Shown piece after piece: positions 6,565-41,289 of a stretch of 45,896 nt of DNA. The stretch spans positions 1-45,896 of the IMG/VR virus record IMGVR_UViG_3300033149_004327. One strand, written 5' to 3'. This stretch comes from a virus. The notes beneath the pieces are model-generated. The model saw nothing but the letters and a program-made list of their open reading frames with translations, made no database searches and was not told the origin of the DNA. The position numbers and the translations under genes are program-made. Position 1 is the first letter of the stretch, and the number at the start of each line of letters is the position of its first letter.

Positions 6565-7129
6565 GGAGGCGAACGAGCTTCGCATTCGTGTTTCGATCCG
6601 GGATCTTGATCGAATCAATCGTTTTGTCCTGGATCGTATTGGCTTATCGGTCGAGGACATTCTGAGCAGGGCGATAGAGAACGAGATCATAAAAACCATA
6701 GACTTTGCCCACCTCTGCGCAGAATACGCCGAGCACCGCTCACCAAAATCCTTACACAGCAGCAGAGAGTCCGTGCGACGGAGCGGCCTATCCAATTCTG
6801 CGCGGCCGGCAGGACGGAAAGGGCCCCATCCCGCTCAATGTTCCCCACCCACCGGGGCCCGTCGGGCCCTCCGTCGCACCCCAACGAACGGGTACAAGGA
6901 GCCATCAGAGACCGCCCCCTGTACAAGGGGTGAGGGCGATGAGGAGTGTATTTGGTTGGGTAAGAACCTGTTCTGTCCCTATGCAGCGAGATCGCTCCTT
7001 GAGGCCAGGTATTTCGAGCAGGACTGCCCCCATGCCCCGGCGGGGGTATGGAAGCAATTTAAGAACCGAGAAGAGAGATTGAGATCTGTTCAGGAGCGGC
7101 AGCCCTCGAAGGAGGACCCGGATTCATGA
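6548..7129 (+). CDS. hypothetical protein with C-terminal Cys motif
   Basis: 193 residues, GTG start behind GGAGGGGG, overlapping the preceding gene by 17 bases. Residues 1-55 are a charged helix/strand region that could be a small DNA-binding fold. The C-terminus carries C-x8-C-x8-CPY-x14-CPHAP, matching the motif of the protein at 5423-5812 (C-x8-C-x16-C). The middle (about 60-125) is low-complexity Arg/Ser/Pro. In that middle a different frame (about 6705-6920) reads more like protein (GKGPIPLN), so a frameshift or a nested gene is possible. Both ends of this frame look real; the join is uncertain. Confidence 0.55.
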   Translation: MVKIIREANELRIRVSIRDLDRINRFVLDRIGLSVEDILSRAIENEIIKTIDFAHLCAEYAEHRSPKSLHSSRESVRRSGLSNSARPAGRKGPHPAQCSPPTGARRALRRTPTNGYKEPSETAPCTRGEGDEECIWLGKNLFCPYAARSLLEARYFEQDCPHAPAGVWKQFKNREERLRSVQERQPSKEDPDS

Positions 7130-8490
7130 CGGATTCGGCGACGGGGATGGCCCCTAAACTCTACAGGTTCCAAAGGGCTGGTGTAGAGTTCCTCATAAAG
7201 AGGCGCCGGGCCATCCTCGCCGACGACATGGGGCTGGGCAAAACCGTGCAAGCCATTACGGCCTGCGAAACCCAGGGATTACACAGAATCCTCGTGGTCT
7301 GCCCGAACACGCTCAAGACGTGCTGGGCAAACGAGATATCGCGCTGGGCACCGGGCAGGTATGCCAAAGTTCTGAGGGGGAACTACGCGACCAGGGGGGA
7401 GGATGCCTCCGGGTTCCGCGCGGGGTATTTGATAACGAACATAGAGAGCCTGCGCAAACCCAGATTCGTCAATGTCCTAGCGTCTCTGCCCTGGGACGCC
7501 CTGATCGTTGACGAGGCCCACGGATTGAAAAATAGAAAGGCAAGCCAGACGCGGGGGGCCCGCGCCCTGGCGCACCGAATTCCCCGCGTGTATCTGCTGA
7601 CCGGTACGCCTATACTGAACAAAGTAAACGACCTATGGTCTCCGCTGAATATATTGTACCCGAGGCACTATAGATCATTTTGGCGTTTCGTGCAGCGGCA
7701 CACGATAGTAACCAAAGATTTTTATGGCTGGCGTGTAGACGGAAAGCCAACAAGGCCGACGGAATTAAAACGCGAACTGTCACCGATCCTGCTGCGCAGA
7801 AGCAAGGAGGAAATCTTCCCCGACATGCCCAGAATCGTGTACCAGAAGCTTTGGCTGGACATGGACGGGCCCCAGCGGGACATGTACAGGGCGATCGAGA
7901 GGGGGACCCTGGTGGGCATCGGCGACGGCGATGAAATATCGGTGGTCAACGCCCTGGCGAAGCTGACCAGGTGCCGACAGGTCACCACATCCCCTGCGTT
8001 ACTGAACGGCCCTTCGATCGGGGTCAAATTCGAGGCTCTTCTGGACGTAATCAATGGTACGGACCAGAAGATCGTCGTATTTTCCCAATTCGCTGAGGCA
8101 ATAAAACTGGTGACGGCCGCGCTGACTGAACGCGGCATCGCCACCGTAACTTTAATCGGTGAGACAAAGGAGGTAATGAGGAATGCTTCTATCGATCTTT
8201 TCCAGAGGTCCTCCGAGGTGAAAGTACTGGCCGCAACTACCCAGGCCGGGGGATTTGGGATAACCCTGACATCGGCTGGTCTGGTTATATTCCTGGACAA
8301 GCACTGGACTCCGGCGGTCAACAGACAAGCCGTAGACCGGACCCGTCCGCACATGCAGAAGCGGTCGGTGCAGGTCATTGAGCTCCTGTGCCGCGATAGT
8401 GTGGACGAGATCATAGAGAAGGTGCTTGCCGGGAAGGCCTCCATCGTGGAGGCCATACTCGAACGAAAGGAGAGAATATGCCAAGCATAA
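7126..8490 (+). CDS. SNF2-family DNA helicase/translocase
   Basis: 454 residues. Domain 1 carries Walker A (DDMGLGKT, Lys39), the DEAH box (residues 129-132) and LTGTP near 158. Domain 2 holds motif V (TTQAGGFGITLTSA) and motif VI (RQAVDRTRP near 399-407). This matches the compact SNF2-type superfamily 2 ATPases found in phages, which move along duplex DNA and help replication or recombination. It starts at an ATGA overlap and leads a block with a Cas4-like nuclease, a Sak4-like ATPase and an SSB-like protein, so recombination-linked replication is the likely context. The usual DRxHRIGQ end of motif VI is altered to DRTRPH. Confidence 0.9.
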   Translation: MTDSATGMAPKLYRFQRAGVEFLIKRRRAILADDMGLGKTVQAITACETQGLHRILVVCPNTLKTCWANEISRWAPGRYAKVLRGNYATRGEDASGFRAGYLITNIESLRKPRFVNVLASLPWDALIVDEAHGLKNRKASQTRGARALAHRIPRVYLLTGTPILNKVNDLWSPLNILYPRHYRSFWRFVQRHTIVTKDFYGWRVDGKPTRPTELKRELSPILLRRSKEEIFPDMPRIVYQKLWLDMDGPQRDMYRAIERGTLVGIGDGDEISVVNALAKLTRCRQVTTSPALLNGPSIGVKFEALLDVINGTDQKIVVFSQFAEAIKLVTAALTERGIATVTLIGETKEVMRNASIDLFQRSSEVKVLAATTQAGGFGITLTSAGLVIFLDKHWTPAVNRQAVDRTRPHMQKRSVQVIELLCRDSVDEIIEKVLAGKASIVEAILERKERICQA

Positions 8491-8876: not shown

Positions 8877-9902
8877 ATGAGACAGCGCATCAGTTGGTCT
8901 GAGATCAATACGTGGTGCACCTGCCGCGAGAAATGGCGGTGGATGTACGAGGTCGGAATAGTCCCAAAGCGGGCGGCGGCTGCACCGGCCATAGGGTCGT
9001 GCGGGCACGCCGCCGTCGCCGCCCTGCTACGCGGGAGGGACTGGGGGCAAGCCATAGATGCGTGGGTCAAAGAGCGCCTGGATGAACAACCGCTGTTTGA
9101 TGAGGAGGCTGATGAGATTCGGGCGATGGGCGACCTGGTAAAGGGGGTAGTGGAAAGGTATACGAGGCATTATGAGACGGAGCTATTCGAGCCGGTGAGA
9201 GTGGAGTGTAAATTCGAGATACCGATCCGCGGTCTAAGACTGACCCTGATTGGCTACTGGGACGCTATAGTGCGGGGTACTGACGGTCATCTGTGGCTCA
9301 TGGAGCACAAGTTCCCGAAGTCGCGGATGAGAAGCGAGGATGATCTTGTACTCGACGGGCAGATCGGAACCTACCAATATGCGGCCCACAGAGCGGGTTT
9401 TCCCGTAATAGGTACAATCTACAATCAGCTGCTGGCAAGACTCCCGGCGGAGCCCTCTGTGAACAAAAACGGCAGCCTATCCAGGGCGGCCGTGTATACG
9501 GACTGGGAGACTTACAGGGCGGCCGTTGTAAAACGGGGGCTCGATCCCAACGACTACCTGGACATGCGCGAGAAGCTGGCGGGGTACGAATTCTTCCGGC
9601 GTACATATATCTACCGCCCCATGGAGGAGATCAGGCTTTTTGCGAGGGATCTAGAGAGGCGCATATGGGATCTCACCAAGCGACATAAGCACATATACCG
9701 TAGCGAGTCCTTCATTACATGCGGACGATGTGCCTATCGTGAGCTGTGCATTGAGACCCTGAAAGGAGGGCGCAACATAGATTACATGATCGAGAATGAT
9801 TTTGAACCGAGAAAGCCGAGGAAAGAGCCGGAACCCAACGATGACAGAGCGGATCTTTGGTTATTGGAGGATTCCGGTACGACAAAGGAGGTTGACGGAT
9901 GA
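8877..9902 (+). CDS. Cas4/RecB-like PD-(D/E)XK nuclease with Fe-S cysteines
   Basis: 341 residues. Catalytic signature: GSCGH (His44), Asp129 in GYWDAI and E-x-K in LMEHKFP (Glu143, Lys145), the layout of the PDDEXK_1/Cas4 family. Cys14/Cys16 near the N-terminus and C282-x2-C285-x5-C291 near the C-terminus could hold a 4Fe-4S cluster as in Cas4 and AddB. It likely resects DNA ends as part of the phage recombination system with the neighbouring ATPase and SSB-like genes. The start is the ATG directly after the previous stop. Confidence 0.85.
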   Translation: MRQRISWSEINTWCTCREKWRWMYEVGIVPKRAAAAPAIGSCGHAAVAALLRGRDWGQAIDAWVKERLDEQPLFDEEADEIRAMGDLVKGVVERYTRHYETELFEPVRVECKFEIPIRGLRLTLIGYWDAIVRGTDGHLWLMEHKFPKSRMRSEDDLVLDGQIGTYQYAAHRAGFPVIGTIYNQLLARLPAEPSVNKNGSLSRAAVYTDWETYRAAVVKRGLDPNDYLDMREKLAGYEFFRRTYIYRPMEEIRLFARDLERRIWDLTKRHKHIYRSESFITCGRCAYRELCIETLKGGRNIDYMIENDFEPRKPRKEPEPNDDRADLWLLEDSGTTKEVDG

Positions 9903-10771
9903 AGAAAGACCTGGAGAAAGCTCCGGAACCGGGAAGCGCAGTAGCAAACGAGGCTGAATCCGTGGAATCCGTGGAGGCGCTGCCCACGGCGCGGCAGACA
10001 CTGGACATCTACAAGCCAAGCGTGTCAAAATACAAGCTGAAGATGCTGGTATACGGTCCGCCCGGCGTCGGCAAGACTTCTCTGCTGGCCACGGCGAACC
10101 TGCACAAGATAACGGCCCCGGTGCTGCTTGTGAACGTCGAGGGCGGAATGCTCAGCGTGGCGGATGCCGCGGTGCTGGGCCTCAAGGAGCCGCCCGATGT
10201 CGTGGACCTGAAGGGATTCGACCAGCTGGAGGAGATTTTCTGGTATCTCGCCAAAGGGGATCACCCTTACAAGTCCGTTGGGATTGATTCACTGTCCGAG
10301 CTGCAGATGGTCAACCTGGAGAATATAGTCAAGAAGCTGCTGGGCCGCGTGAGCGGATCGGGGGCGAGGCGGGAATCGCTGGATGATGTGTGGCGCGAGG
10401 ATTACGGAACGAGCACGCAGCAGATGCGCAGGGTAGTCCGGAAGTTCCGCGATCTACCGATGCATGTGTTCTTCTCGTGCCACGAGGTGGCATCCCAGGA
10501 CAAGGACAAGAACGAGGTCGTGCATCCCATGCTGACCACCAAGCTGAGAAGCGCCGTAATGGGCTACATGGATGTAATCGGCTACATGTACATCGACTCC
10601 GATGACAAGCAGGAGGATCAGGTGAAGAGACGCCTATTGTGTCAGCCGTTCGGCAAATGGCAGGCGAAGGACAGATCGCCGGGCCAACGGCTGGGCCTGG
10701 TCATTGACAACCCCACAATCCCGGTCATCATCGATCGGATAATCAAAAAAGAAAGGAGGAAAGGAGAATGA
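9899..10771 (+). CDS. Sak4-like RecA-fold ATPase (single-strand annealing family)
   Basis: 290 residues. Walker A GPPGVGKT at residues 53-60 (Lys59), a Walker B-like strand SVGIDSLSEL near 126, and the sensor-like strand MHVFFSCHEV. This is the AAA_24/Sak4 pattern of phage recombinases that pair with an SSB to anneal single strands. The next gene encodes an SSB-like protein, which fits that partnership. The N-terminal 40 residues are acidic and probably disordered. It overlaps both neighbours by four bases (ATGA). Confidence 0.85.
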   Translation: MKKDLEKAPEPGSAVANEAESVESVEALPTARQTLDIYKPSVSKYKLKMLVYGPPGVGKTSLLATANLHKITAPVLLVNVEGGMLSVADAAVLGLKEPPDVVDLKGFDQLEEIFWYLAKGDHPYKSVGIDSLSELQMVNLENIVKKLLGRVSGSGARRESLDDVWREDYGTSTQQMRRVVRKFRDLPMHVFFSCHEVASQDKDKNEVVHPMLTTKLRSAVMGYMDVIGYMYIDSDDKQEDQVKRRLLCQPFGKWQAKDRSPGQRLGLVIDNPTIPVIIDRIIKKERRKGE

Positions 10772-11319
10772 ATAAGCCAAATCTACCGAAAGCGGGGCGC
10801 AGGAGCGGCAAGACTCCGAAGCCGGATGGTCCCAAGGAGCAAGGGCCCGCTGAACCCGTGGGGCTGCCCGATGAGCCCGCGGAGATTCCCGTGCCAGGCG
10901 GCGAGGAGGAGTATTTCGAGGAGGACTTTCAGGATGTCGACGATTCCTTTAAGCTGGCCACCGAGGGGATGCATCACGCTAAGGTGATAGATTTTGAAAA
11001 GGCGGACAGCAGAACCGGAAATCCCCAGTACATCTGGCTGTTTAGGATCACGGCTGGCGAATCAAAGGATATCGAGCTTAGATATTGGACAAGTCTCTTG
11101 CCACAGGCGCGGTGGAAGGTTGCCGAGACCCTCTCTGCCGTCGGCATCGAGGCCTTCGGCAGCATAGCGAGGTTTCGCAAGAGCGATATTGTGGGAAAGC
11201 CTTGCATAATCGAGGTGTTTCACCAGGAATTCGAGGGCAGGATGCAGCATAAGATCCGCAAGGTTTACCAGCCGAACAAGGACAGCATCAAGTTCGCGGA
11301 GGATGATATCCCGTTCTGA
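10768..11319 (+). CDS. SSB-like protein (DUF669-type) with acidic DDIPF tail
   Basis: 183 residues. A disordered Pro/Lys-rich N-terminus (1-55) is followed by a beta-rich domain (about 60-165) whose order resembles the DUF669/phage SSB-like family. The last residues EDDIPF match the conserved acidic tip (DDDIPF) by which bacterial SSBs recruit partner proteins. That ending and its position next to the Sak4-like ATPase support a single-stranded DNA-binding role. Confidence 0.75.
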   Translation: MNKPNLPKAGRRSGKTPKPDGPKEQGPAEPVGLPDEPAEIPVPGGEEEYFEEDFQDVDDSFKLATEGMHHAKVIDFEKADSRTGNPQYIWLFRITAGESKDIELRYWTSLLPQARWKVAETLSAVGIEAFGSIARFRKSDIVGKPCIIEVFHQEFEGRMQHKIRKVYQPNKDSIKFAEDDIPF

Positions 11320-11403: not shown

Positions 11404-13179
11404 ATGCTGATATCTAAAATCGAAGATTATCATAGGCTGTTAGAGCGCTTGCACAGCGGGCACAATTTAATGGTCTACGATCTGGAGACCACCGGGCTAA
11501 ACCCGTTTGCGGACGCGCACCTGATAGGTGTGGCCATTGCGGTGCCCGATTTAACGAGCGGCGACGGGGGAGAGTCCTACTATATTCCGTTCCGGCACAA
11601 ACCCGGGCCCAATTTGCCGCTTGCCGAGCTGTACAAGCTGGCCCCCTTGCTGGCGGATCCCGGCAGAGTCCTGATGGGGTTCAATGTCAAGTTCGATGTC
11701 CATTTTACCGAAGCGGAACGCATAGCGGTACACAATCAGCTCATAGATGTGATGCTGGGGGCCCATCTAGCGAACGAGAACGAGATGAGCTTCTCTCTCA
11801 AGCGCCTGGGGACAAAGTACGTGGATCATCATGCTTCCACCGAGGACAGGCAACTGATCGCTAGGCTGGAGCAGCGGGGGTTGGGCAAGGCCGACATGTT
11901 CAAGCTGTCGCCGGAGGAGGTGGCCCCGTATGCGGAGACCGATGTAAAGCTTACATGGGCCCTCGCTAAGTTCTACAGCGACAACCTGGAGAAGCAGGGG
12001 ATCAACGCCCTGTGGCCGGAGCTAAACAGGTACCTGGAGGCCGTCATAGCGATGGAGCGCCGCGGTGTCCTGATTAATGTGGACGCGTGCCGTCGTCGTC
12101 TCGCAGAGGCGGAGGAAAAACAGGAGCAGCTAAAAAAGGAGATGTGCCGGATCGTCGGCCGCAAGTTTAACCCGGCCAGCGTCCCGCAGCTCCGTAATAT
12201 ACTCGGGCAACGGGCCACAGATCGAGCAGCGCTGAGCAGATCCAAACATCCGATTGCCCAGCTGATATTGGAATACAGGGCTTGGGCCAAGGCGGCCGGC
12301 ACATTTTACCGCGCCCTCCTGGATAAGATGGACGACAGCTACAGGGTGCACCCCAGCTTTAACCTGATAGGGACGGTCTCGGGCCGCCTGTCCTGTACGG
12401 AGCCGAATCTGCAGGCACTTCCCAAGGGGGGGGATGGTGTGTATAAGGTCAGGGAGCTCATCGTGGCCCCACCCGGCTATACCCTAATGTCCTGGGACCT
12501 GAGCCAGGCAGAGCTTCGCCTGCTGGCTCATTACTCCCAGGACACCTTTCTACTCGATGCATTCAAGGAGCGCAAGGATATTCATGGGGAGACGGCGGCC
12601 GCCCTGGGCATCCCGCGGGATTTCGCCAAGAGGATCAACTTCGGCGCCATTTACGGAATCGGTCCAGACAGGCTGGCCGGGATCCTAGGTGTAGACAGAG
12701 GGACAGCGGCGGACTACCTGAATCGCTATCACCGTAATCTCCCGGGCGTGTACCGTCTCCACCAGAAAGTCGTCCGGATAGCGGAACGGGATCGAAAGAT
12801 ACCGATGTGGACCGGTCGCCTCCGGCACTACAGGGACGCGGACGAGGCTCACAAAGCAATGTCAAACCTCATTCAGGGCGGAGTCGCCGAGATGATGCGC
12901 GTGATAATGACGAAGCTGCACGGTATAATGAGAGGAACCGGGGCCCGTCAGGTGCTACAGATTCACGACGAAATACTATTTGAGATCCCGGAGGGCCAGC
13001 ACAACGCCGTGGACTGGGCCGTGACGATCAAGGAGGCGATGGAAGACTTTAATTTCTCGGTCCCCATAGTTGCGGAGGGGCGCATCGGGTACTCCTGGGG
13101 GGCGGACGTCATGCGGCCGATCGAGTACGATCTTGCCGGGGTGCCCGTCATCCCGAACATCGCAGGGGGCAGGACTTGA
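11404..13179 (+). CDS. family A DNA polymerase with 3'-5' exonuclease
   Basis: 591 residues, no 5'-nuclease domain. Exonuclease residues: D26 and E28 in YDLETTGL, D98 in GFNVKFD, Y176 and D180 in YAETD. Polymerase motif A is WDLSQAELR (D365), motif B R405-x3-K409-x3-F413 with FGAIYG, motif C QIHDE (H521, D522). The residue matching E. coli Pol I Phe762 is Phe413; the one matching Ile709 is Ala369. It is directly followed by the PurZ/PurA-like gene, the neighbourhood expected of DpoZ polymerases in aminoadenine phages. The start is ATG 11404 behind GGAG. The 84-base upstream gap is GC-rich with self-complementary stretches but no recognised site. Confidence 0.95.
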   Translation: MLISKIEDYHRLLERLHSGHNLMVYDLETTGLNPFADAHLIGVAIAVPDLTSGDGGESYYIPFRHKPGPNLPLAELYKLAPLLADPGRVLMGFNVKFDVHFTEAERIAVHNQLIDVMLGAHLANENEMSFSLKRLGTKYVDHHASTEDRQLIARLEQRGLGKADMFKLSPEEVAPYAETDVKLTWALAKFYSDNLEKQGINALWPELNRYLEAVIAMERRGVLINVDACRRRLAEAEEKQEQLKKEMCRIVGRKFNPASVPQLRNILGQRATDRAALSRSKHPIAQLILEYRAWAKAAGTFYRALLDKMDDSYRVHPSFNLIGTVSGRLSCTEPNLQALPKGGDGVYKVRELIVAPPGYTLMSWDLSQAELRLLAHYSQDTFLLDAFKERKDIHGETAAALGIPRDFAKRINFGAIYGIGPDRLAGILGVDRGTAADYLNRYHRNLPGVYRLHQKVVRIAERDRKIPMWTGRLRHYRDADEAHKAMSNLIQGGVAEMMRVIMTKLHGIMRGTGARQVLQIHDEILFEIPEGQHNAVDWAVTIKEAMEDFNFSVPIVAEGRIGYSWGADVMRPIEYDLAGVPVIPNIAGGRT

Positions 13180-13231: not shown

Positions 13232-13258
13232 AATACTAGCACCGAAAGGAGGCATTGA

Positions 13259-14365
13259 GTGGACGAAAGGAAAGACATCGACATCGTTGTCGGCGGTCAG
13301 TATGGGGACGAGGGAAAGGGCATGGTGGCCAAGCTGCTGGCTGACAGGGCCGAGGAGGCCGGGCGGCCGTACGCCTGGACCGGGCGGGTCGGCGGGCAGA
13401 ATGCCGAGCACAGATTCATCCACGGCGCCTGCGATTTCTGCGCCAGAATTCTCCCGTCAGCATCGTGCTACAGGCCCAACATAATGGCGGTCCTGGGGGC
13501 CGGGCATTGCTTCATGCCGGAGCATCTCATCAGGGAGGCAACACATCTCGGGGTACCGCTGAACAGGATCATAGTGGACCCTCACGCCATGTGGCTGCGT
13601 CCGGACCATGCGAAGGCAAATTTGGAGATAGGAAACGCAAGGGGCACGACGGGATGGGGCGTAGGCGCTGCGATAGCGGAGAAGGTCCGCCGCGGCCCGG
13701 GCACAAAGTTGGTCGGAGACTGCGAAGAGCTGAGGCAGGCCCTGGGCAAAAACCTGAGATCAGTACCGGAGTACATAGAGGAGTCTCCCGGGCCCGCTCT
13801 GGTGGAGGGCTCTCAGGGTGCGTTGCTGTCGCTGAACCACGGCCATTACCCGTATTGCACATCAAAGGACGTGACGGTGCCCGCGCTGGCCGCAGAGATG
13901 GGGTTTAGTTATAAGCGTATCAGGTCCGTCGTGGGCGTGTTCAGGACCGTCCTCATGAGGGTGCCCGGCCACAGCGGACCGGCGGCCGGGAGGGAGCTAT
14001 CGTTCGACGAGGTGGAGAAAAGGACTGCATTAAGGATACCCCACCACAAGAGAATGCAGGGGGACTCTACCCGCTGGCGGGTTCAGGGGGACCCGGACGG
14101 AATAAAGGAAGAGAGGCTCTTCGAGTTCAATGCGGAAGAGCTCCGTAAATCACATACACTGAACAGATACGACGCCCTGGCCCTGACGTTTGCGGATTTC
14201 CACCGCAGGGGCAACTATAGGGTAACTAAGTGGAAGGAGCTGCACCCGGACACCCGGCGCCTGGTCCTGGACATCCAGGACATTATAGGCGTACCGGTCA
14301 TCTTGGTACGGACGGGCCCGGGTGAGCACGACAATATCTGGAGACCAAACGGAGGCAGCCTATGA
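13259..14365 (+). CDS. purZ: adenylosuccinate synthetase-like enzyme, PurZ/PurZ0 candidate
   Basis: 368 residues, GTG start six bases after AAAGGAGG. The PurA-family signatures are present: GGQYGDEGKG (residues 12-21; Asp17, Lys20), NAEH with His51 matching the catalytic His, GTTGWGVG, and VEGSQGALLSLNHGHYPY. It is shorter than bacterial PurA (about 430) and close to phage PurZ. PurZ joins aspartate to dGMP on the path to 2-amino-dATP, while PurA uses IMP. As recalled, classic PurZ replaces the catalytic Asp by Ser, whereas this protein keeps Asp17, as in PurA and the PurZ0 group. The segment matching the GTP-specificity motif (TKLDVLD) reads TLNRYDAL, so the cofactor may differ. The polymerase neighbour favours a PurZ-type role. 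Confidence 0.8.
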   Translation: MDERKDIDIVVGGQYGDEGKGMVAKLLADRAEEAGRPYAWTGRVGGQNAEHRFIHGACDFCARILPSASCYRPNIMAVLGAGHCFMPEHLIREATHLGVPLNRIIVDPHAMWLRPDHAKANLEIGNARGTTGWGVGAAIAEKVRRGPGTKLVGDCEELRQALGKNLRSVPEYIEESPGPALVEGSQGALLSLNHGHYPYCTSKDVTVPALAAEMGFSYKRIRSVVGVFRTVLMRVPGHSGPAAGRELSFDEVEKRTALRIPHHKRMQGDSTRWRVQGDPDGIKEERLFEFNAEELRKSHTLNRYDALALTFADFHRRGNYRVTKWKELHPDTRRLVLDIQDIIGVPVILVRTGPGEHDNIWRPNGGSL

Positions 14366-14730
14366 GTAATCAAGACCAACCGACGGTCGGCGAATTGCTG
14401 GCGTGGCTGTCGAGGATCAGGGACAAGTGCTTCCGGGGCCTCTTTTCCTATACGTGGTCCAAGGCGCAGGACGAGAAATGCTACAACGAGCTGACCAGGA
14501 TCCTGGGGATGCTGGATTCGGAGGGTGTCGCTGACGCCGGTGACAAGCAAAAATTCGACGCTATGGCGGGTACAGTCAAAAGGGGCGGGTCGGAGAGGCC
14601 GAAGCGGGCAAGATGGGAGCGCATGGAAATATACAAACTGTGGAACTCGACATGCCTGTTCATCCTGAATTACGGGGACGAGATAAGGCGGCTGCTGGAG
14701 ACGGCGGTTGAGCAGGACGATTTTGACTGA
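14362..14730 (+). CDS. hypothetical protein downstream of purZ-like gene
   Basis: 122 residues, starting at an ATGA overlap with the purZ-like gene, so it is probably co-translated with it. It is mostly helical, with a Lys/Arg-rich middle. It lacks the ExxE...ExxD pattern of MazG/MazZ pyrophosphatases and the HD motif of DatZ, so it is not an obvious partner enzyme of a Z-DNA pathway. Function unknown. Confidence 0.7.
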   Translation: MSNQDQPTVGELLAWLSRIRDKCFRGLFSYTWSKAQDEKCYNELTRILGMLDSEGVADAGDKQKFDAMAGTVKRGGSERPKRARWERMEIYKLWNSTCLFILNYGDEIRRLLETAVEQDDFD

Positions 14731-19927: not shown

Positions 19928-21658
19928 TTGCCATCAGACATACCAAAAATACCCAAAGCCCGCGCCGGGCATGCACCGGGCGCGCCGGACGTACCCGGTT
20001 GGGCCACAAGATACCTAGGCATCGGATGGAACGTGATACCGGTCGGCCGGGACAAGCGCCCGGCCCTGGGATCGTGGAAGGAGTACCAGACGCGCAGGGT
20101 CACCGAGGGGGAGATCCGCAGGTGGTGGACGGAGCGCCCGGCCGCCGGCGTGGCCATTCTCACCGGCGCGCTGTCCGGCGTGATCGTGGTGGACGCGGAC
20201 TCGGAGGAGGGAAGCCGCGCCGTCCGGAAGCTTATGAACGGACCGACCCTGGAGGCGAGAACGGGCGGCGGCGGCACCCATTATTACTTCCGGCACCCCG
20301 GGGGCCGGGTACCGAGCCTCGTCCGGTTCATGCCGGGCGTCGACTGTAGGGGGGACGGGGGGTACGTGGTCGCTCCGCCATCGGGGCACCCGTCGGGGGG
20401 ACTCTACTCGTGGGTCAACTGGGGCACCGTGCCTGCCCCGCTGCCCCCCGCTCTGGCGGCCCGGCTGCGTTCGGGGGCTCGCCGCAACTCCGTAGACTGG
20501 GGCGCAAGCGTACCGAAGGGAACGCGCGATCAGGAGCTGACGAGACGGGCCGGGAAGCTCTTACGGGCCGGCCTGACACCGCGCGAGACCCTGGACGTAC
20601 TGGTAGCCGTCAACGCCGCATATTGCCGGCCGCCGCTCCCCGCAGAGCAGGTCCGCAAAATAGTCCGCAGCATAGCCGCCCGCGAGGCGGAGCGGCGGAC
20701 GACCGAGCGCAAGGGCGCCTTCACGGTGCTGCCCCAGAGGGAGATGCTGCGGCGGTACGCCGAGGACGAGACCCGGTGGACGATCGTGGAGTGGCTGCCC
20801 GAGGGTGCGTGCGGCCTGCTGGTGGCGCCGCCCGGCAACTACAAGACCTGGCTCCTGGCCGCCGTGGCGTTCTCGGTGAGCACCGGCGAACCCTTTCTCG
20901 GCCGCTGGGCCGTACACGCGCCCGGGCCCGTGCTGTTCATCCAGCAGGAGGACCCGTGGAGCATGCTGGAATCCCGTCTGTCCCGCATGTTCGTGCAGGA
21001 GGCGCCGTCGGCCGGTGCCGGGCAGGACCCCGAGTACCGTCTCGACTGCCGGTTCGTCGAGCGCCTGGACTCCATGCCCGTGTACTGGTACACCGACCGC
21101 AGGCTCCGGTTCTCCGACCGGGACGTTGTGGCAGCCATGGAGCGGACAATAGCGAATCTGCGCCCGCGGGTCGTGCTGATCGACCCGCTGTACACCGCCG
21201 CCGACTCCCGCGACTATATGGCCGAGAGCGCCCAGAGGATGGCCGAGCTGAAGGTCATGAGGGACAAATACGGATGCTCGTTCATCGTAGCCCATCACAC
21301 GACGGTCGCGGGCGCGGCCTCGAAGGACCGGTCGGCAATATGGGGCTCCCAGTTCCTGAATGCCTGGCTTGAGTTCGGATGGAGACTGCCGGAGGGGTAC
21401 GGGGACGGCAACGTCATCATCAGGCACTTCAAGGCGACGCAGAGCCCATCGCGGCTGAGGGTCAAATTCCGTATAACGGAATGGTCGTTCGGGGCGGAGA
21501 CCGAGGAGGACCGCGCGACGGACGCGGACGAGATTGAGGTTCAGATCTTGACCGGCGCCCTGCGCCCGGTCGTGGGCGATATAACGAAAAAAACGGGATG
21601 CTCGCGCGCCACCGCGTACCGGGTGCTGAGGAAACTCAAGGAGGAGGGGAAGATATGA
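19928..21658 (+). CDS. bifunctional primase-polymerase/helicase
   Basis: 576 residues, TTG start seven bases after GGAG. Residues about 25-190 are an archaeo-eukaryotic prim-pol domain: DAD (Asp89, Asp91), GTHYYF (His118) and GVDCRGDGGYVVAPPS. Residues about 195-260 resemble a PriCT linker. Residues about 285-500 are a RecA-like helicase with APPGNYKT (Lys306), LIDPLYT (Asp419) and FIVAHHTT. The last 35 residues form a helix-turn-helix (DITKKTGCSRATAYRVLRKL). It would open and prime the origin; the repeat array directly downstream is the likely target. Prim-pols also occur in aminoadenine phage S-2L. Confidence 0.88.
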   Translation: MPSDIPKIPKARAGHAPGAPDVPGWATRYLGIGWNVIPVGRDKRPALGSWKEYQTRRVTEGEIRRWWTERPAAGVAILTGALSGVIVVDADSEEGSRAVRKLMNGPTLEARTGGGGTHYYFRHPGGRVPSLVRFMPGVDCRGDGGYVVAPPSGHPSGGLYSWVNWGTVPAPLPPALAARLRSGARRNSVDWGASVPKGTRDQELTRRAGKLLRAGLTPRETLDVLVAVNAAYCRPPLPAEQVRKIVRSIAAREAERRTTERKGAFTVLPQREMLRRYAEDETRWTIVEWLPEGACGLLVAPPGNYKTWLLAAVAFSVSTGEPFLGRWAVHAPGPVLFIQQEDPWSMLESRLSRMFVQEAPSAGAGQDPEYRLDCRFVERLDSMPVYWYTDRRLRFSDRDVVAAMERTIANLRPRVVLIDPLYTAADSRDYMAESAQRMAELKVMRDKYGCSFIVAHHTTVAGAASKDRSAIWGSQFLNAWLEFGWRLPEGYGDGNVIIRHFKATQSPSRLRVKFRITEWSFGAETEEDRATDADEIEVQILTGALRPVVGDITKKTGCSRATAYRVLRKLKEEGKI

Positions 21659-21677: not shown

Positions 21678-21934
21678 TGAGACGGCCGTGAGACGCCGTG
21701 CGGGCCTTCCCGGGGGGAGCACCGTCTCACGGTTTGAGACGAATTTGAGACACCGTGAGACGATTAGAAGTATAGGGACCTATGAGGTTTGAGACGACCG
21801 TGAGACGCTTGAGACGCCTCCCGGGGGCGAAGATGCCCCAAGGTTTGAGACGGTCGTGAGACGCTTGAGACAGAGGCCGTAGAGCGGCGCGTCTCACGCG
21901 GCTCTCTCCCCTAAAAGGGGAGAGCCCGTGAGAC
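21678..21934 (+). repeat. TGAGAC iteron-like array, candidate replication origin
   Basis: The 305-base gap 21659-21963 contains 14 copies of TGAGAC: 12 forward (starting 21678, 21689, 21735, 21746, 21756, 21790, 21801, 21810, 21846, 21857, 21866, 21929) and two reverse (GTCTCA at 21724 and 21891). Three triplets start at 21735, 21790 and 21846 with 9-11 bases between copies, so each triplet sits on one face of the helix and triplets repeat every 55-56 bases. A hairpin (CTCTCCCC, loop TAAAA, GGGGAGAG, 21904-21924) closes the array. It lies between the primase-helicase and a ribbon-helix-helix gene, as expected for iterons of a phage origin or operators of the regulator. Confidence 0.8.
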
Positions 21935-25339: not shown

Positions 25340-26762
25340 GACCGAGGTGCGGAAAAGTCGGGTACACCGCTACGTCGTCACAGATCGGGGGGTTTACCCG
25401 TTCTCCCTATTGAAGAAGCACGAAGAGAACCTGGCTCAGTCGCGCCAGCTGGAAGAGGACGATCCTGCCTGGATGCGCGAACATGGGCTCATCGAGTTGC
25501 CGTTCAACGTTGGATCGCTCCTTTGGATGCAGGACAACTGCACGTATTTCGACGCTTGCGTTCGGCAGATAGCAACCGATGTCATCGCCGGAGGCTACAT
25601 GCTCGTACCGGTCGAGGAGGGGAAAGATGACGAGGCGGAACGGAAGGAGATTGAGCAGCTCTTAAACGATCCGAATAACGCCGACGAGACGTTTCTCGAT
25701 ATCGTGCACAAATGTGTCATCGACTGGGGCGTTGTCGGCTGGTGGGCCATTGAGGTGAGCCGCGGCGCCGACGGGCTGGTTAACGGGCTCTTTCACGTAC
25801 CGGCCCACACGATGCGTGTTCACCGTAGCCGGCGGAAGTATTGTCAGGTGCGCGATACTCGCAAGCGTTGGTTCATCCGGTTCGGTGAGAGCCTGACCGT
25901 GAACGAGAACACCGGGGCCGAACACAAGACCTCGAAACACCGGGCCAATGAGATTATATTCCACGGACAGTACTACGCTCAGAACACCTACTACGGCCGG
26001 CCGAATATTCTCCCGGCCGTCGGCGCATCGGCCGGACTGATCGGTGTGCGATCCTACAACCTGGCGTTCTTCGAGAACTACGGGATCCCGGCCGCCTTCG
26101 TCCTCCTGGAGGGCGAATGGGAAGAGGGAAGCGCGAAGCTCATTTCCGACTTTCTGGAGAACGAAATCAAAGGGTCTGAAAACGCTCACAAGACAATCGT
26201 GCTCGAAATCGCGCCGGGATCCACGGTGACATGGAAGCCTCTGGCCGTGGAGGAGAAGGAGGGCCATTTCGTCGTGTACGCGAAGGAGCTCCGGGATGAG
26301 ATCCTGAGCGCCTACAAGATGCCGCCCTATCGAATCGGGATCGCCGAGGTCGGGAAGCTCGGCGGCACGACCGCACCGACCGCCGACCGGATCTATATCA
26401 AGGCCGTCGTGGAGCCTCTGCAGCAGCTGTTTGAGAGGTTGATTACAGCAAAGGTCCTGAGGCAGGGCCTGGGGGCGGAGCGCTATCGGCTGCAGTTTAA
26501 CAAGATCGATACCCGCGATTGGGATGCCCTGGTCGAACGTTGGGAGCGGCTCTTCGGGATGGGCGTAATAACGCCCGGATGGATGGCTGAGCAGCTCGGC
26601 CTCCCGACCGATGAGATGCCGCACGCGGGGGATTATTTCCTATCAAATCGCTATGTACCCGTGGATGAGGCGGGCCTAGTGCCAGCCGAGATGTCTGACG
26701 AGGACATTCGCCGTGCCGTCGAGGAGGTCGTGGCTCAGGCCAAGAAGGGGGCGGGGAAATGA
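25302..26762 (+). CDS. portal protein
   Basis: 486 residues behind AAGGAGAT. It has the HK97/PBSX-type portal pattern: NCTYFDACVRQIATDVIAGG near 80-100, FHGQYYAQNTYYGRPNILPA near 222-240, NYGIPAAFVL, and ILSAYKMPPYRIGIAE near 330-345. It forms the dodecameric ring at the capsid vertex through which DNA passes. The position directly after TerL agrees. Confidence 0.93.
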   Translation: MAEKRAKSISRAKTEVRKSRVHRYVVTDRGVYPFSLLKKHEENLAQSRQLEEDDPAWMREHGLIELPFNVGSLLWMQDNCTYFDACVRQIATDVIAGGYMLVPVEEGKDDEAERKEIEQLLNDPNNADETFLDIVHKCVIDWGVVGWWAIEVSRGADGLVNGLFHVPAHTMRVHRSRRKYCQVRDTRKRWFIRFGESLTVNENTGAEHKTSKHRANEIIFHGQYYAQNTYYGRPNILPAVGASAGLIGVRSYNLAFFENYGIPAAFVLLEGEWEEGSAKLISDFLENEIKGSENAHKTIVLEIAPGSTVTWKPLAVEEKEGHFVVYAKELRDEILSAYKMPPYRIGIAEVGKLGGTTAPTADRIYIKAVVEPLQQLFERLITAKVLRQGLGAERYRLQFNKIDTRDWDALVERWERLFGMGVITPGWMAEQLGLPTDEMPHAGDYFLSNRYVPVDEAGLVPAEMSDEDIRRAVEEVVAQAKKGAGK

Positions 26763-27487
26763 GGCTCCCGGAGCTCGTTATCATCGGAGCACCGCGCTGC
26801 GGTACGAGCTCGCTTTGGGCCATGCTGAAGCACCTGCCCAAAACAAAAACGCCCCGAATAAAAGAGGCGCATTTCTTCAATCGCAAGTGGGACCGAGGCC
26901 TCCGGTGGTATTCCGGCTTTTTTTCTAAAGCGGGTGGCGATGTCCTCTGCTTCGAGGCGACGCCAGCCTATCTTGCGACACCGAACGTACCTGAAAGGGT
27001 CGCGGCTTCGCTCCCAGACGCCCGGTTTGTGGTCATGCTTCGGGACCCCGTGGCGCGGGCGATCTCTCATTATTGGCTGAATCAGCATCGGTTTAAGAAT
27101 CTTCAGGGGTTGATCAATCCTAAGAGCCGCTGTGTTGCGCCAGGTCGCTATGCAGAACACCTTGAGCGCTGGTACCGCCATGTAGGACGGGAACGGGTCC
27201 TCGTCATCATCTCGGAGCGATTCTTCGAGGATCCGGTTCGTGAGGCAATGCGGGCCCTACTCCATGTCGGGAGACACGACCTGGTATGCCATCTCCGTCC
27301 GATATACCACGATCCGCTGGCGAGGTGGAAGAAAAAGTACGGTCCGCCTAGGATACCGATTTACGTTATCCATTGGCTTAGGGAACACTACAAGGAACCG
27401 AACCGCCGGCTGGCCCGGATGCTGGCCGGAGATAACACAACGGCCGACTGGATGGACGGCCGAATAAAACCAAAGGAGCGCACATGA
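26759..27487 (+). CDS. sulfotransferase-family protein
   Basis: 242 residues, ATGA overlap with the portal gene. The PAPS-binding loop is IIGAPRCGTSSL (residues 8-19) and the 3'-phosphate motif is VVMLRDPVARAISHYW (near 90-105), both standard in bacterial sulfotransferases. It would move a sulfate from PAPS to a hydroxyl acceptor, perhaps glycans on the virion or host surface. Its insertion between portal and head genes is unusual; a second family member occurs at 41286-41948. Confidence 0.85.
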   Translation: MRLPELVIIGAPRCGTSSLWAMLKHLPKTKTPRIKEAHFFNRKWDRGLRWYSGFFSKAGGDVLCFEATPAYLATPNVPERVAASLPDARFVVMLRDPVARAISHYWLNQHRFKNLQGLINPKSRCVAPGRYAEHLERWYRHVGRERVLVIISERFFEDPVREAMRALLHVGRHDLVCHLRPIYHDPLARWKKKYGPPRIPIYVIHWLREHYKEPNRRLARMLAGDNTTADWMDGRIKPKERT

Positions 27488-37191: not shown

Positions 37192-37908
37192 ATGAAAGTG
37201 CCGAAGAACAGATTGTTTGAAGCAGAGCAACTGACGAACCGAAGATTGCACGAGGTCCTACCGGATGGAGCCTGGAAGGGCCGGCCGTGCATTGTCGTCG
37301 GAGGAGGTCCGAGTCTTCGTGATTTCGATTTCAGCCTGCTTCGGGGGTGGCGGACGATAGGGATAAACCGAGCATTTGAGCGCTTTGAACCGACAATTAT
37401 CTTCTCGATGGATACGCGGTTTCTCAACTGGCTACTCGACGGAAAGTACGATAGACTTCCGGACGGTCACAGGGCCCTGGACAAATTCCGTCGAGCCCGG
37501 TCTTATAAAGTCTGGCTTGCAACCTATTCGCTCCGGCTACCGAACGGCTTTTTTATCGTACCCGTTTACAAGAGCTATCAGTACGGTCTGCGCGCGATCA
37601 GCCCATCTCTCCAGGAGGGGCTTGGGCACGGCAATAACTCCGGCTATGCAGCGATCAACCTTGCGCTCTGCCTCGGGGCCGATCCGATCTATCTCCTCGG
37701 CTTTGACTGCAAGCACAGCGACGGCCGGAGCCATTGGCATGCCGGACACCCGGTTGCCCAGCGCGAACAGACCGTCAAGAAGTTCATCAAGTATTTTCAG
37801 CGTGCCGCAATGCTTACACGCCACCTCCCGAACCGCATTATCAACCTCGGGCCCGATAGTGCGCTCCGTTGCTGGCCGGAGAAAAATTGGAAGGAGGTGT
37901 TGCATTGA
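37192..37908 (+). CDS. DUF115/glycosyltransferase-42-like protein
   Basis: 238 residues. IVVGGGPSL near residue 35, TIGINRAF near 60, and NNSGYAAINLALCLGADPIYLLGFDC near 154-179 match the Rossmann-like DUF115/MptE and GT42 (sialyltransferase-like) group. It may modify a sugar or make a sugar donor. It opens a block of glycan-related genes inside the structural module. Substrate unknown. Confidence 0.65.
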   Translation: MKVPKNRLFEAEQLTNRRLHEVLPDGAWKGRPCIVVGGGPSLRDFDFSLLRGWRTIGINRAFERFEPTIIFSMDTRFLNWLLDGKYDRLPDGHRALDKFRRARSYKVWLATYSLRLPNGFFIVPVYKSYQYGLRAISPSLQEGLGHGNNSGYAAINLALCLGADPIYLLGFDCKHSDGRSHWHAGHPVAQREQTVKKFIKYFQRAAMLTRHLPNRIINLGPDSALRCWPEKNWKEVLH

Positions 37909-38270
37909 AGTGCGGCGTTGTAAAGGATAAGGTCTGGGGTCGGACGACGCTTATCTTCCGGACGGCGAACGTCGAGGTCCACTATCTGGAAATCAAAGCC
38001 GGCGGCTATTGTTCGAAGCATCGGCACGTGAAGGGAAAGAGCAACCTCTTTCATATCATTTCGGGGCGCCTGGTGGTTCGGGTCTGGGATGCCACGGGTG
38101 AAAAACTCATCGACAGCACCGTACTCGATCCTGGGCAGATTACGGTCGTCGCGCCGTTGCTCTGGCACCAATTCGAGGCCGTGAAGCCGACCCGTTGCTA
38201 TGAGATTTACGAAACGAGAGTCGATCCCGGGGACATCGAACGCGTAAGCGAGGGAGGAATCCGGAGATGA
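37905..38270 (+). CDS. cupin-domain protein
   Basis: 121 residues, TTG start overlapping the previous stop and preceded by AAGGAGG. Cupin motif 1 is GGYCSKHRHVKGKSNLFHIISG and motif 2 is PGQITVVAPLLWHQFEA, with His residues for a metal. Its pattern is that of the sugar-isomerase type cupins (GDP-mannose pyrophosphorylase C-terminal). It probably takes part in nucleotide-sugar metabolism for the glycosyltransferases around it. Confidence 0.75.
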   Translation: MKCGVVKDKVWGRTTLIFRTANVEVHYLEIKAGGYCSKHRHVKGKSNLFHIISGRLVVRVWDATGEKLIDSTVLDPGQITVVAPLLWHQFEAVKPTRCYEIYETRVDPGDIERVSEGGIRR

Positions 38271-38309
38271 GACTACCACTTTATTTGACGCTTGAGGAGG
38301 TATTTAGAA

Positions 38310-38519
38310 TTGCTAAAATTTAAAACGCAGATCAAGATGATACGGATTGTTTCCACAAAATTTTTTCTTCTATACCGGATGTTTATAGGAAACAAACCGG
38401 GCGCTTTTCTTTTCGCCTTCCGGACGATATCCTTGGTCAAAGCGCTATGGGTTCTACCGATGAAGCGGTTCCCATTTCTGAAATTCTCAAAGATATCTAC
38501 CTATGTCATAACGGGGTAA
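38310..38519 (+). CDS. small Phe-rich basic protein in AT-rich pocket
   Basis: 69 residues from TTG 38310, behind GGAGG (38296-38300). The protein is rich in Phe, Lys and Leu (FFLLYRMFIGN, FLFAFRTISLVKALWVLP). Base composition differs from its GC-rich neighbours, and a short frame from ATG 38267 (18 residues) overlaps the previous stop. It may be a recent import or a non-coding remnant. Confidence 0.35.
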   Translation: MLKFKTQIKMIRIVSTKFFLLYRMFIGNKPGAFLFAFRTISLVKALWVLPMKRFPFLKFSKISTYVITG

Positions 38520-38525
38520 GAACAA

Positions 38526-39407
38526 ATGAGGGTGGCGATCTACTCCAGGACGCCGATGGCGGGGGCGCCTTGGGAGCTGTACAAGGCGCTCCGCCGCTAT
38601 ACCGACCTTGACGTTTCGCTCGTGAATGACTTTTTCCGGTATGCCGACGGGCGTGTTTTCCCTTATCATTTGCTTATGACCTCGCAGAACGGAACGGCCC
38701 GGGCGGCTATGGAACGTGCTGACATTTGGCATGTTAACAACTACCTGACGCCAGCGATCCGGCGGTTGCGGGGGTCGCAGCGCGTGCTGGCGCAATTCCA
38801 TAGCCTTCCGCGCCTTGGTAATTGGAACGCACTTATGCAATGGGCCGACCAAAGCTACACGATCGACCAACCCGGCCAATTGGCCGAGTACGGCATCCCG
38901 GGGCTCCCGAACATCGTCGACCCCGATGAGCTCGTACCGCAGCGCCGACCGACACGGGTCGCCATAGCATTCGCACCGACTAACCGCATGCCGCCGGGGC
39001 GGCCCGACTCCAAGGGCTACCACCAGGTGAAGGCGATTCTCCAGCGGGTTGCTGTCAAACGTGCGGCTGAGATCATCTGGATAGAAGGGCGGCCCTACGA
39101 AGAGAACCTCAAGATGAAAGCGCGGGCCCATATCCTGATTGATGATGTCGTTACGGGAAATTGGCACCGTACGGCCCTTGAGGGCGCAAGCCTCGCATGC
39201 GTCGTCGTATCGTCATCGCGCCGATCACCTTTCGTTTATGCGACGCTTTCCACCCTGGAGGAACGGCTCCTGTGGCTCATAGACAATCCGCCGATCCTGC
39301 GCGATTACCAAGAAAGGGCACGTCTCTGGATGCTACAGGAACGCCATCCGATTGAGCTGACGAAAAAATATGTTGCCGCTTACCGGAGGGTCCTCAATGC
39401 ACGTTAG
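38526..39407 (+). CDS. GT-B-type glycosyltransferase
   Basis: 293 residues. N-terminal MRVAIYSRTPMAGAPWELYKAL resembles the donor-side Rossmann start of GT4-like enzymes, followed by ADIWHVNN and a C-terminal domain with VAIAFAPTNR, EIIWIEG and the acceptor/donor segment TALEGASLACVVVSS. It would transfer a sugar to a virion or host acceptor. It ends 11 bases into the next start. Confidence 0.7.
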   Translation: MRVAIYSRTPMAGAPWELYKALRRYTDLDVSLVNDFFRYADGRVFPYHLLMTSQNGTARAAMERADIWHVNNYLTPAIRRLRGSQRVLAQFHSLPRLGNWNALMQWADQSYTIDQPGQLAEYGIPGLPNIVDPDELVPQRRPTRVAIAFAPTNRMPPGRPDSKGYHQVKAILQRVAVKRAAEIIWIEGRPYEENLKMKARAHILIDDVVTGNWHRTALEGASLACVVVSSSRRSPFVYATLSTLEERLLWLIDNPPILRDYQERARLWMLQERHPIELTKKYVAAYRRVLNAR

Positions 39408-40065
39408 TGTAGTGATCCCGACCTTCGCAAGGCCGAAGCTCTTGGTAAAGACCGTCGCATCACTCCGGGCTCAAACATACACCGACTTGAGCGTCCACGT
39501 CGTTGTCGACGGGAACCCGGATGTCCTGAACCAGGCACGCGGGCTTGGGGTTGATGTCCACTATAACCGCCAGCGGGTGGACTGGGTACAGGCGATGAAC
39601 GAAGCGCTAGGCCGAATCCGGGAAGGGGCCGTGATTTATGCAAGCGATGACTTGGAATTTGAACCGCGGGCGATCGAGATGACGGTTAAACGCCTCCGAG
39701 CCAAAGCGCCGGACGGGGACGCCGTGGTCGCCATAACCCAGGATGTCCGAGGATGTAGCTCTGCGTTCGGGATCCTCGGCCCGGCTTTCATCAAGCGCTT
39801 TCCGCGCCAGGCTGTTTTCTGCCCGGATTATGTACATTACGGGTCGGATTTTGAGCTTGGTAAGTTCGCCCGGTCGATCGGCCGATTTTACACGTGTCCG
39901 GCCGCGCGAGTCAAACACCATCGGCCGAAGGATGAAACCTACCGGACGGCGAAGCCCGTCGAAAGCAGAGACCGCATGTTCCTCAGAATGCGCCAGGAAC
40001 GCGGTTTACTGTGGGGGGCATCGTTCGATCTTCTGAGCGAGAGGGGCAAAAGATGGGCTGGCTGA
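39397..40065 (+). CDS. family 2 glycosyltransferase
   Basis: 222 residues from ATG 39397 behind GGAGGG (an upstream frame from 39370 is not needed). N-terminal HVSVVIPTFARPKLLVKTVASL is the GT-A start; YASDDLEF (near 85-92) is the DxD-like metal site; the C-terminal part has YGSDFELGKFARSIG. It has a single compact domain, shorter than many GT2 enzymes. Confidence 0.8.
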   Translation: MHVSVVIPTFARPKLLVKTVASLRAQTYTDLSVHVVVDGNPDVLNQARGLGVDVHYNRQRVDWVQAMNEALGRIREGAVIYASDDLEFEPRAIEMTVKRLRAKAPDGDAVVAITQDVRGCSSAFGILGPAFIKRFPRQAVFCPDYVHYGSDFELGKFARSIGRFYTCPAARVKHHRPKDETYRTAKPVESRDRMFLRMRQERGLLWGASFDLLSERGKRWAG

Positions 40066-40919
40066 AATACATCATCATGCCGAAAAACGACGGGCAGCGA
40101 TATTATGCGGTTCATTACAAGTTCTTTGCACGTCTCATGGCCGCGGCCGGGCTCCGCGTTGAGTATGCCACAATGCCCAGGGCGAATCGCGGCTTTGAGG
40201 TCCAGGTCGAAGGGCGCAGGATCCTCATCGACTTCGGCGACCACCATCACACAGCACCCGATGTCAATGAGTTCGACGCCTGCTTCAGATACCACTACTC
40301 GCATGACCGCCACGACGCCCATCGGCGGACTTACCCGTTCACCCCGGTATCATTTCACTCCTGGCAGCAGTACAAGGCGCTTAAACAACTAATTCGCTAT
40401 GATGCGCGGGGTGAATTCATCTTGAACGCGCAGCGGCCCGGGGCCGCAGCGAAGGAGCGCCGGCTGAGGGTTCAGGCAACCCTGCGTCGTAAGTATGGGA
40501 CGCTGCTGGACACGACCATTACCAAACCTGAAGGCTTCTGGAGGCGGGTCGAGCGGTCTCTCGTGGCTGTCTGCGTGCCCGGCGCGAGGAATGATATCCT
40601 CGACCGCGGCCAGCTCCAGCTCTGGGCTTTTGGCATGTGCACGATTTCGCCGCGGCTGGAAATCGTCTTGCCGTGGTGGGAGAAGCCTGAACCCGGGCGC
40701 CATTACATCAAATGCGCCGGCGACTACTCTGACCTCATCGACCGGATTGAATGGTGTCGGGCGAACCGCGACGCCTGCCACAAAATAGGTACCGAGGCGA
40801 AGGCGCTTTTTGGCCGAGCATGTGCGCCAGGCCGAGTGCGGCGCTGGATGGAATACTGTCTCTTAGAGGAGGGAACTAATGGCGAAGAAATTTCTCGACG
40901 AACAACTGGAGCCGCTTGA
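40053..40919 (+). CDS. glycosyltransferase-like protein
   Basis: 288 residues from ATG 40053, overlapping the previous gene by 13 bases. Features: EVQVEGRRILIDFGDHHH, YHYSHDRHDAHRR and a C-terminal PWWEKPEPGRHYIKCAGDYSDLIDRIEWC, typical of the C-terminal half of GT4-like enzymes that read the nucleotide-sugar. The donor domain is only partly recognisable, so activity is not certain. Confidence 0.6.
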   Translation: MGWLKYIIMPKNDGQRYYAVHYKFFARLMAAAGLRVEYATMPRANRGFEVQVEGRRILIDFGDHHHTAPDVNEFDACFRYHYSHDRHDAHRRTYPFTPVSFHSWQQYKALKQLIRYDARGEFILNAQRPGAAAKERRLRVQATLRRKYGTLLDTTITKPEGFWRRVERSLVAVCVPGARNDILDRGQLQLWAFGMCTISPRLEIVLPWWEKPEPGRHYIKCAGDYSDLIDRIEWCRANRDACHKIGTEAKALFGRACAPGRVRRWMEYCLLEEGTNGEEISRRTTGAA

Positions 40920-41289
40920 GAGAGCGGCGTACCGCCGGGGGCTCCGTGTCCTTGACCTCAGAGGCATGCCGGTTGAACCGGAGCGCTTGGTTATCGAGGC
41001 TCCGGCGTCCTACTACGGAACAATCCGGGCGGGGATTCATCTGGCCCAGGTGAAAGATCTTCGACAGTCGTTGGCTGAATGCCGTCGAGTACTGCGGCCC
41101 GGGGGCCGTCTGGTGGGCGCTATCTGGACGCGGCAGGGTCGGGACTTCGCTCGGGGGCTGTACTTTTTTGCGCGGAAGCAGGTTAGAATACTCTTCGGAA
41201 GTCTGCAGTGGAGATTGATAGAAAGAAAGATAGTCTTTCGCCGGCCGCCTGACAAGCATCTGGAAGTCTTCATCCTGGAGGCCGCATGA
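40879..41289 (+). CDS. truncated class I methyltransferase-like protein
   Basis: 136 residues behind GGAGGG, overlapping the previous gene by 41 bases. SLAECRRVLRPGGRLVGAIW (near 60-80) is the post-motif-II segment (RVLkPGG) of SAM methyltransferases, but the N-terminal GxGxG SAM loop is missing. It is either a degenerate enzyme, half of a two-part protein, or a fold reused for another role. Confidence 0.5.
   Translation: MAKKFLDEQLEPLERAAYRRGLRVLDLRGMPVEPERLVIEAPASYYGTIRAGIHLAQVKDLRQSLAECRRVLRPGGRLVGAIWTRQGRDFARGLYFFARKQVRILFGSLQWRLIERKIVFRRPPDKHLEVFILEAA

Follow-up and report, generated by a model that had tools for sequence, protein, structure and literature searches.

The window, i.e., the whole stretch of DNA analyzed, is a 45,896-base virus record that carries no completeness estimate and so may be incomplete; it stops within the tail genes. 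Its plus strand encodes a SNF2-type helicase within the replication block (7126–8490), a PD-(D/E)XK exonuclease (8877–9902), a Sak4-like annealing ATPase (9899–10771), a single-strand-binding-like protein (10768–11319; a weak match, in a conserved cluster), and a family A DNA polymerase with a 3′-5′ exonuclease (11404–13179; 591 aa; DNA_pol_A at 1.1e-73, 3′-5′ exonuclease at 1.1e-10). The end of the polymerase gene is separated by 79 nt from the start of a gene for a PurA-family synthetase (13259–14365), whose 3′ end is overlapped by an ORF of 122 aa (14362–14730) that matches no known family and was not seen in relatives. On the same strand, 5.5 kb 3′ of the synthetase, lies a primase-polymerase (prim-pol) gene (19928–21658); in the related contigs L035, L037, and L041–L043, prim-pol comes one to a few genes after the synthetase. 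Just 3′ of the prim-pol gene, a repeat beginning GGTTTGAGACG occurs three times within 21731–21871, at a spacing of ~56 nt, and could represent iterons or an origin. In the structural gene block (26759–27487, 37192–44006), sulfotransferase-, glycosyltransferase-, and methyltransferase-like proteins were recognized by eye, including two related methyltransferase-like genes (41945–42487, 43410–44006).

The synthetase ORF is intact, with a GTG start and 368 aa. A Shine-Dalgarno-like sequence, AAAGGAGG, is read directly 6 nt ahead of the GTG (13245–13252, plus strand), and is predicted to be a strong ribosome-binding site. The protein matches PF00709, the adenylosuccinate synthetase family, at 1.6e-32; its best single profile match is the archaeal-type PurA model NF003295 (6e-51), and its best PDB match is the archaeal PurA of Pyrococcus (5k7x; 4.4e-30). 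Against the PurZ model NF038379 it scores 127 bits, below the curated cut-off of 300 bits. Comparison with the nearest relatives gives a dN/dS of ~0.1, and the gene is under purifying selection, although dS is saturated. The earlier note on this DNA had described a 368-residue PurA-family gene immediately after that for a family A polymerase, along with a prim-pol; both observations hold.

Within 50,697 GenBank phage records, identity to the synthetase reaches only ~31% at best. Two sets of uncultured relatives were assembled. Set Q comprises the close relatives from a viral-contig collection (60–79% identical: L035, L036, L037, L002, L007, L038, L009), and the sister set S comprises L039–L045, L144, L046, and L047 (35–44% identical to the window protein), of which L046 and L047 are contigs from bacterial MAGs. 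In a maximum-likelihood tree, the window protein and all 17 of these relatives form one clade (100/99), which falls inside a superclade (100/97) that also takes in PurZ, PurZ0, the rhizobial fusion proteins, and a homologue from a Bacillus phage; archaeal and bacterial PurA lie outside. A second tree, to which further PurZ0-like rows were added, recovered the Q/S clade and set PurA apart at 100/100; an AU test did not separate the alternative orders among the lineages (p 0.243), so that the catalytic Asp may be ancestral or a reversal. The phylogeny that the earlier note had proposed as a check therefore puts the synthetase on the PurZ side (100/97) and not within host PurA. Tree and sequence features together define the gene as a third, previously undescribed lineage of PurZ-type enzyme that is neither host PurA, PurZ, nor PurZ0.

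The active site was compared between the 18 Q/S proteins and a set consisting of PurA, PurZ, PurZ0, the PurZ0-like contigs L148–L151 and L159, and the rhizobial and deazapurine homologues. The activation machinery of the window protein is kept (a P-loop with D17 and K20, H51, Q186, and D313), and K16, H41, T129, R143, Q224, and D333 (E. coli numbering) are retained across Q/S wherever covered. In E. coli PurA, D333 reads the guanine of GTP; its counterpart here is D313 (codon 14195–14197, plus strand, as for all codons below). The earlier note had placed the change in the segment that sets GTP use (TLNRYDAL), but D313 is kept and it is the aspartate-binding loop (approximately residues 264–288) that is altered instead.

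Five features separate Q/S from every other group compared, where they never occur together: Asp13, Glu40, Arg42, a replaced loop, and Glu305. All five are invariant in Q/S wherever the residues are covered. The catalytic Asp, D17 (E. coli D13; codon 13307–13309), was correctly identified by the earlier note as kept, but its suggestion that Asp typifies the PurZ0 group does not stand: Ser occupies this position in 147/147 phage PurZ and PurZ0 sequences (PMC12884076) and in all PurZ, PurZ0, and PurZ0-like sequences aligned here, so membership in PurZ0 fails. Residues 48–52 read NAEHR (13400–13414), as compared to NAGHT in PurA, PurZ, and PurZ0 (G40E and T42R); the invariant H51 within this motif corresponds to E. 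coli H41. Residues 236–246, PGHSGPAAGRE (13964–13996), form an insertion after V235 (E. coli V273). The GxSGP insertion at this point is present in Q/S, PurZ, and PurZ0 and missing from PurA, and has been linked to exclusion of the 2′-OH in PurZ (PMC8342488). The aspartate loop, residues 264–288 (14048–14122; KRMQGDSTRW...EERLF), is rewritten: TTVTGRxRR of PurA, or TTVTKxxRR of PurZ and PurZ0, is replaced in Q/S by QTDSG-, QGD-, or GG-type sequences. Arg305, which we take from E. coli PurA mutants to be an aspartate-binding residue, is present in every PurA, PurZ, and PurZ0 of the comparison and is replaced by Glu throughout Q/S (E285 in the window protein). The loop tip contacts aspartate in PurZ, and a role for Arg303 comes from the same study (PMC8342488). 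Judged from these alignments, the L-aspartate binding site is lost in the Q/S synthetases.

An AlphaFold2 model of the synthetase (pLDDT 88, pTM 0.89; low confidence at the loop tip, residues 270–280) has the PurA fold, superposing on the ligand-bound archaeal PurA 5k7x with Z 41.7 and 2.1 Å over 328 residues, and on PurZ0 7vf6 with Z 38.2. The kept activation residues, the insertion, and the changed loop together suggest a deoxynucleotide enzyme in which O6 activation is intact and the amine site has been rebuilt, probably to attach something other than aspartate. Host-like PurA was rejected as the identity of the protein because of the tree and the altered loop, and PurZ0 because of Asp in place of Ser13 and, again, the loop. 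Since two defining features fail (Ser and the aspartate loop), Q/S should not be filed under either PurZ or PurZ0.

Additional evidence comes from the neighboring polymerase. Nine contigs encode a polymerase with 54% or greater identity to the query (A4) and extend far enough beyond it; a Q/S synthetase adjoins the polymerase in 9/9. The polymerases of Q and most of S form a single clade, separate from DpoZ-1 and DpoZ-2, while those of two S members (L044 and L045) group with Wayne DpoZ-1 (96/87). The window polymerase scores 203 bits against NF038380, below the cut-off of 500 bits. Its lineage is, on this comparison of contigs, tightly linked to and co-inherited with the Q/S synthetase clade. 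The PolA proteins of the PurZ0-like contigs L148–L151 form a lineage of their own, apart from DpoZ-1 and DpoZ-2.

The sister set S carries genes typical of PurZ0 phages. In the PurZ0 system, dutZ is found in every PurZ0 genome and dmtZ in most. Near the S synthetases, a nucleoside deoxyribosyltransferase (NDT)-family gene occurs in 7/10 contigs and a Dut-like gene in 3/10; a dmtZ- or dutZ-type gene is present in 8/10. L045 encodes an NDT-Dut fusion that matches the fused DmtZ-DutZ proteins of PurZ0 phages across 98–100% of its length, and L041 has a gene for a DUF5664 dATP/dGTP diphosphohydrolase, so that S is accompanied by each of the three PurZ0 accessory families. The S NDT proteins carry the residues reported as critical in DmtZ (Y6 or F, D12, P57, N77, and E103; PMC12884076), with D12 in 6/7 and N77 in 7/7. 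A generic NDT was rejected as their identity because generic phage NDTs, 13 of which were compared, have Y/F at position 12 and D at 77. Long branches in the NDT tree prevent fine placement, and tblastn with an S NDT against the phage collection returned no match. Among relatives of the window polymerase, an NDT or Dut gene is found in 9/14 contigs with a PurA-family neighbor and in 0/8 without one (Fisher p 0.006, from a post hoc test on related contigs). MT-A70 methylase genes lie beside two S members (L042 and L043) and in the PurZ0-like L148, which mildly favors a free N6 amine, i.e., Z rather than an N6-substituted base. In L037 (3756–3980), L041 (9391–9639), L042 (3904–4152), and L043 (10020–10391), the synthetase is followed by a small AbrB-like protein whose tail resembles a zinc ribbon; it was not seen in the window.

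The window's own subclade presents a sparser picture. Searches of the Q records, most of which are fragments, gave no match to the NDT (PF05014), DUF5664, HD, or MazG families, and a dUTPase search returned only a sub-threshold dUTPase/DCD-type match in L038, where a dCTP-deaminase/Dut-fold gene overlaps the synthetase start. In L007, a different NDT-fold protein, recognized by eye, directly follows the synthetase. The window sequence, possibly itself a fragment, has no dutZ- or dmtZ-type gene and no recognized dATP-removing gene, so the case for purine replacement there is built from the ancestry of the synthetase, its deoxy-type insertion, and the polymerase linked to it. HD (PF01966) and MazG (PF03819) genes were likewise missing from 15 records, most of them fragments, and neither DatZ nor MazZ was found with phiVC8, S-2L, and Bm1 protein queries or Pfam. 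A search of 15 records gave no PurB homologue; PurZ phages rely on the PurB of the host, so this absence says little. A 7-deazapurine route, hinted at by folE, queC, and queE beside a PurA homologue in L028, was rejected, as phmmer with those proteins gave no match in the loci.

There are parallels and differences with each known system. The PurZ0 phages (Ghobes, Wayne, and Galactica, with PurZ0, DutZ, DmtZ, and DpoZ-1) have in common with Q/S the superclade, the PurZ-type insertion, and the GTP-reading Asp; S additionally resembles them in its DmtZ-, DutZ-, and DUF5664-type neighbors and two DpoZ-1-related polymerases. They differ from Q/S in having Ser rather than Asp in the P-loop, NAGHT rather than NAEHR, an intact aspartate loop, and Arg rather than Glu at 305, and for the window subclade, most records of which are fragments, the accessory genes are missing from the sequence searched. 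The PurZ phages (phiVC8, S-2L, JeffCo, and Bm1, with DatZ, MazZ, and DpoZ-2) also have the superclade and insertion in common with Q/S, and the phiVC8-like members have a PolA neighbor, as in the window. Asp13, NAEHR, the lost loop, and Glu305 set Q/S apart from them, as does the donor-base position, which is Asn/Gln in PurZ and Asp in Q/S; PurZ phages have DatZ (an HD protein) and MazZ (a MazG protein), and no HD or MazG family gene turned up in 15 records, most of them fragments. Archaeal PurA (Pyrococcus 5k7x) is similar to the window protein in fold (Z 41.7), length class, D13, and D333, but has no PurZ-type insertion, keeps the TGRxRR aspartate loop, and forms a separate clade. The nearest cellular relatives are kinase-PurZ-like fusions on Agrobacterium and Rhizobium plasmids (E 1e-39; sister at 92/88 in the second tree), which differ from Q/S by Ser13, NAGH, an intact aspartate loop, and a fused P-loop kinase domain.

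Several related loci were observed along the way. On the rhizobial plasmids L026 (6827–11111) and L027 (6822–11099), a P-loop kinase (AAA_18) is fused to a Ser-type PurZ-like domain, and the fusion gene adjoins a YfbR/HD-like 5′-deoxynucleotidase gene and DUF7002; in L027 the cluster lies near helicase, ATPase, and toxin-antitoxin genes. This is possibly a cellular Z-nucleotide cluster. The Rhizobium leguminosarum plasmid L028 (7363–15711) encodes folE, a PurA-like protein, purB, queE, IMP dehydrogenase, nitrile hydratase, and queC, which looks like a deazapurine pathway of the toyocamycin/sangivamycin type. The uncultured PurZ0-like phage L148 (6956–10552) has a compact array of PolA, PurZ0-like, DUF5664 domain protein, and MT-A70 methylase genes, and in the uncultured PurZ0-like contigs L149, L150, L151, and L159, Dut-like or NDT-Dut genes lie beside the synthetase. 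In L017 (7980–10798), a divergent PurA homologue with NAGN rather than NAGH is followed at once by a family A polymerase.

We propose, with a probability of roughly 0.55, that the synthetase aminates deoxypurine nucleotides at position 6 as part of a purine-replacement pathway, using an altered amine donor, and represents a third PurZ-type lineage. GTP would phosphorylate O6 of a purine deoxynucleotide monophosphate, with dGMP a likelier substrate than dIMP; an amine other than aspartate, for example ammonia or a small amine of neutral or cationic character bound by E50 and E285, which would make the amine pocket acidic, would then displace the phosphate. With ammonia the product would be dZMP in one step, and a larger amine would yield a new base, in the form of a nucleotide of N6-substituted (2-amino)adenine. 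Host kinases would convert the product to the triphosphate, the co-inherited PolA would insert it in place of adenine, and in S the removal of dATP and dAMP would fall to the DutZ-, DmtZ-, and DUF5664-type enzymes. That the C6 amine is indeed something other than aspartate, yielding dZMP from dGMP in one step without a succinyl intermediate or PurB, or a (2-amino)adenine substituted at N6 that DNA is not so far known to contain, is a tentative proposal to which we give somewhat less than even odds. If the geometry is as in PurA, the Asp at D17 argues against a 2-amino purine. The proposal is also weakened by the position of the window polymerase outside both DpoZ groups and by the lack of recognized accessory genes in the mostly fragmentary records of the window subclade. 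A non-canonical genome, with Z or a related base, is plausible for the window's virus.

Other readings would account for parts of these data. The virus could make Z by the PurZ route, in which dGMP, aspartate, and GTP give dSMP, if the loop were rearranged so that R52, R286, or K264/R265 replaces Arg303/305. The nesting of the synthetase in the PurZ superclade, the PurZ0 accessory genes of S, and the newly gained invariant arginine R52 near the site are consistent with such an enzyme; we nonetheless regard it as unlikely, given that an arginine universal at position 305 in the PurA, PurZ, and PurZ0 compared is Glu in all Q/S, and that the TTVT loop, which touches aspartate in PurZ (PMC8342488), is gone. 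An auxiliary PurA that joins (d)IMP to aspartate to supply more ordinary adenine nucleotide appears quite improbable. Asp13 is as in PurA, and archaeal PurA provides the best single profile and PDB matches, but the tree position is outside PurA, the aspartate site is lost, a PurZ-type insertion is present, and S is linked to genes of the DmtZ/DutZ type, whose products eliminate dATP and dAMP. The alternative raised in the earlier note, a phage-borne PurA for adenine supply, is thus unlikely in view of the lost aspartate-binding arginines and the tree. There is a slim chance that the protein is a deoxypurine enzyme serving another use, such as salvage or counter-defense against nucleotide-depleting host systems, in a virus with an ATGC genome. 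The window subclade has no recognized dATP-removing gene, which favors this reading; the near-obligate linkage to one PolA lineage (9/9) points to DNA synthesis.

Evidence for the Q/S family consists of sequence and predicted structure from uncultured members; the enzyme probably works like a PurZ system. The adenine-replacing phages known to us rely on PurZ or PurZ0, enzymes that have a Ser-type active site and take aspartate as the nitrogen donor. A third lineage, with a catalytic Asp, no aspartate site, its own polymerase, and DmtZ/DutZ-type genes in relatives, would broaden the range of chemistry behind phage DNA letters, and would allow a direct test of how the change from PurA to PurZ arose. 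The Q/S enzyme hints that a modified DNA letter may be made by a new route, or may itself be of a new kind.
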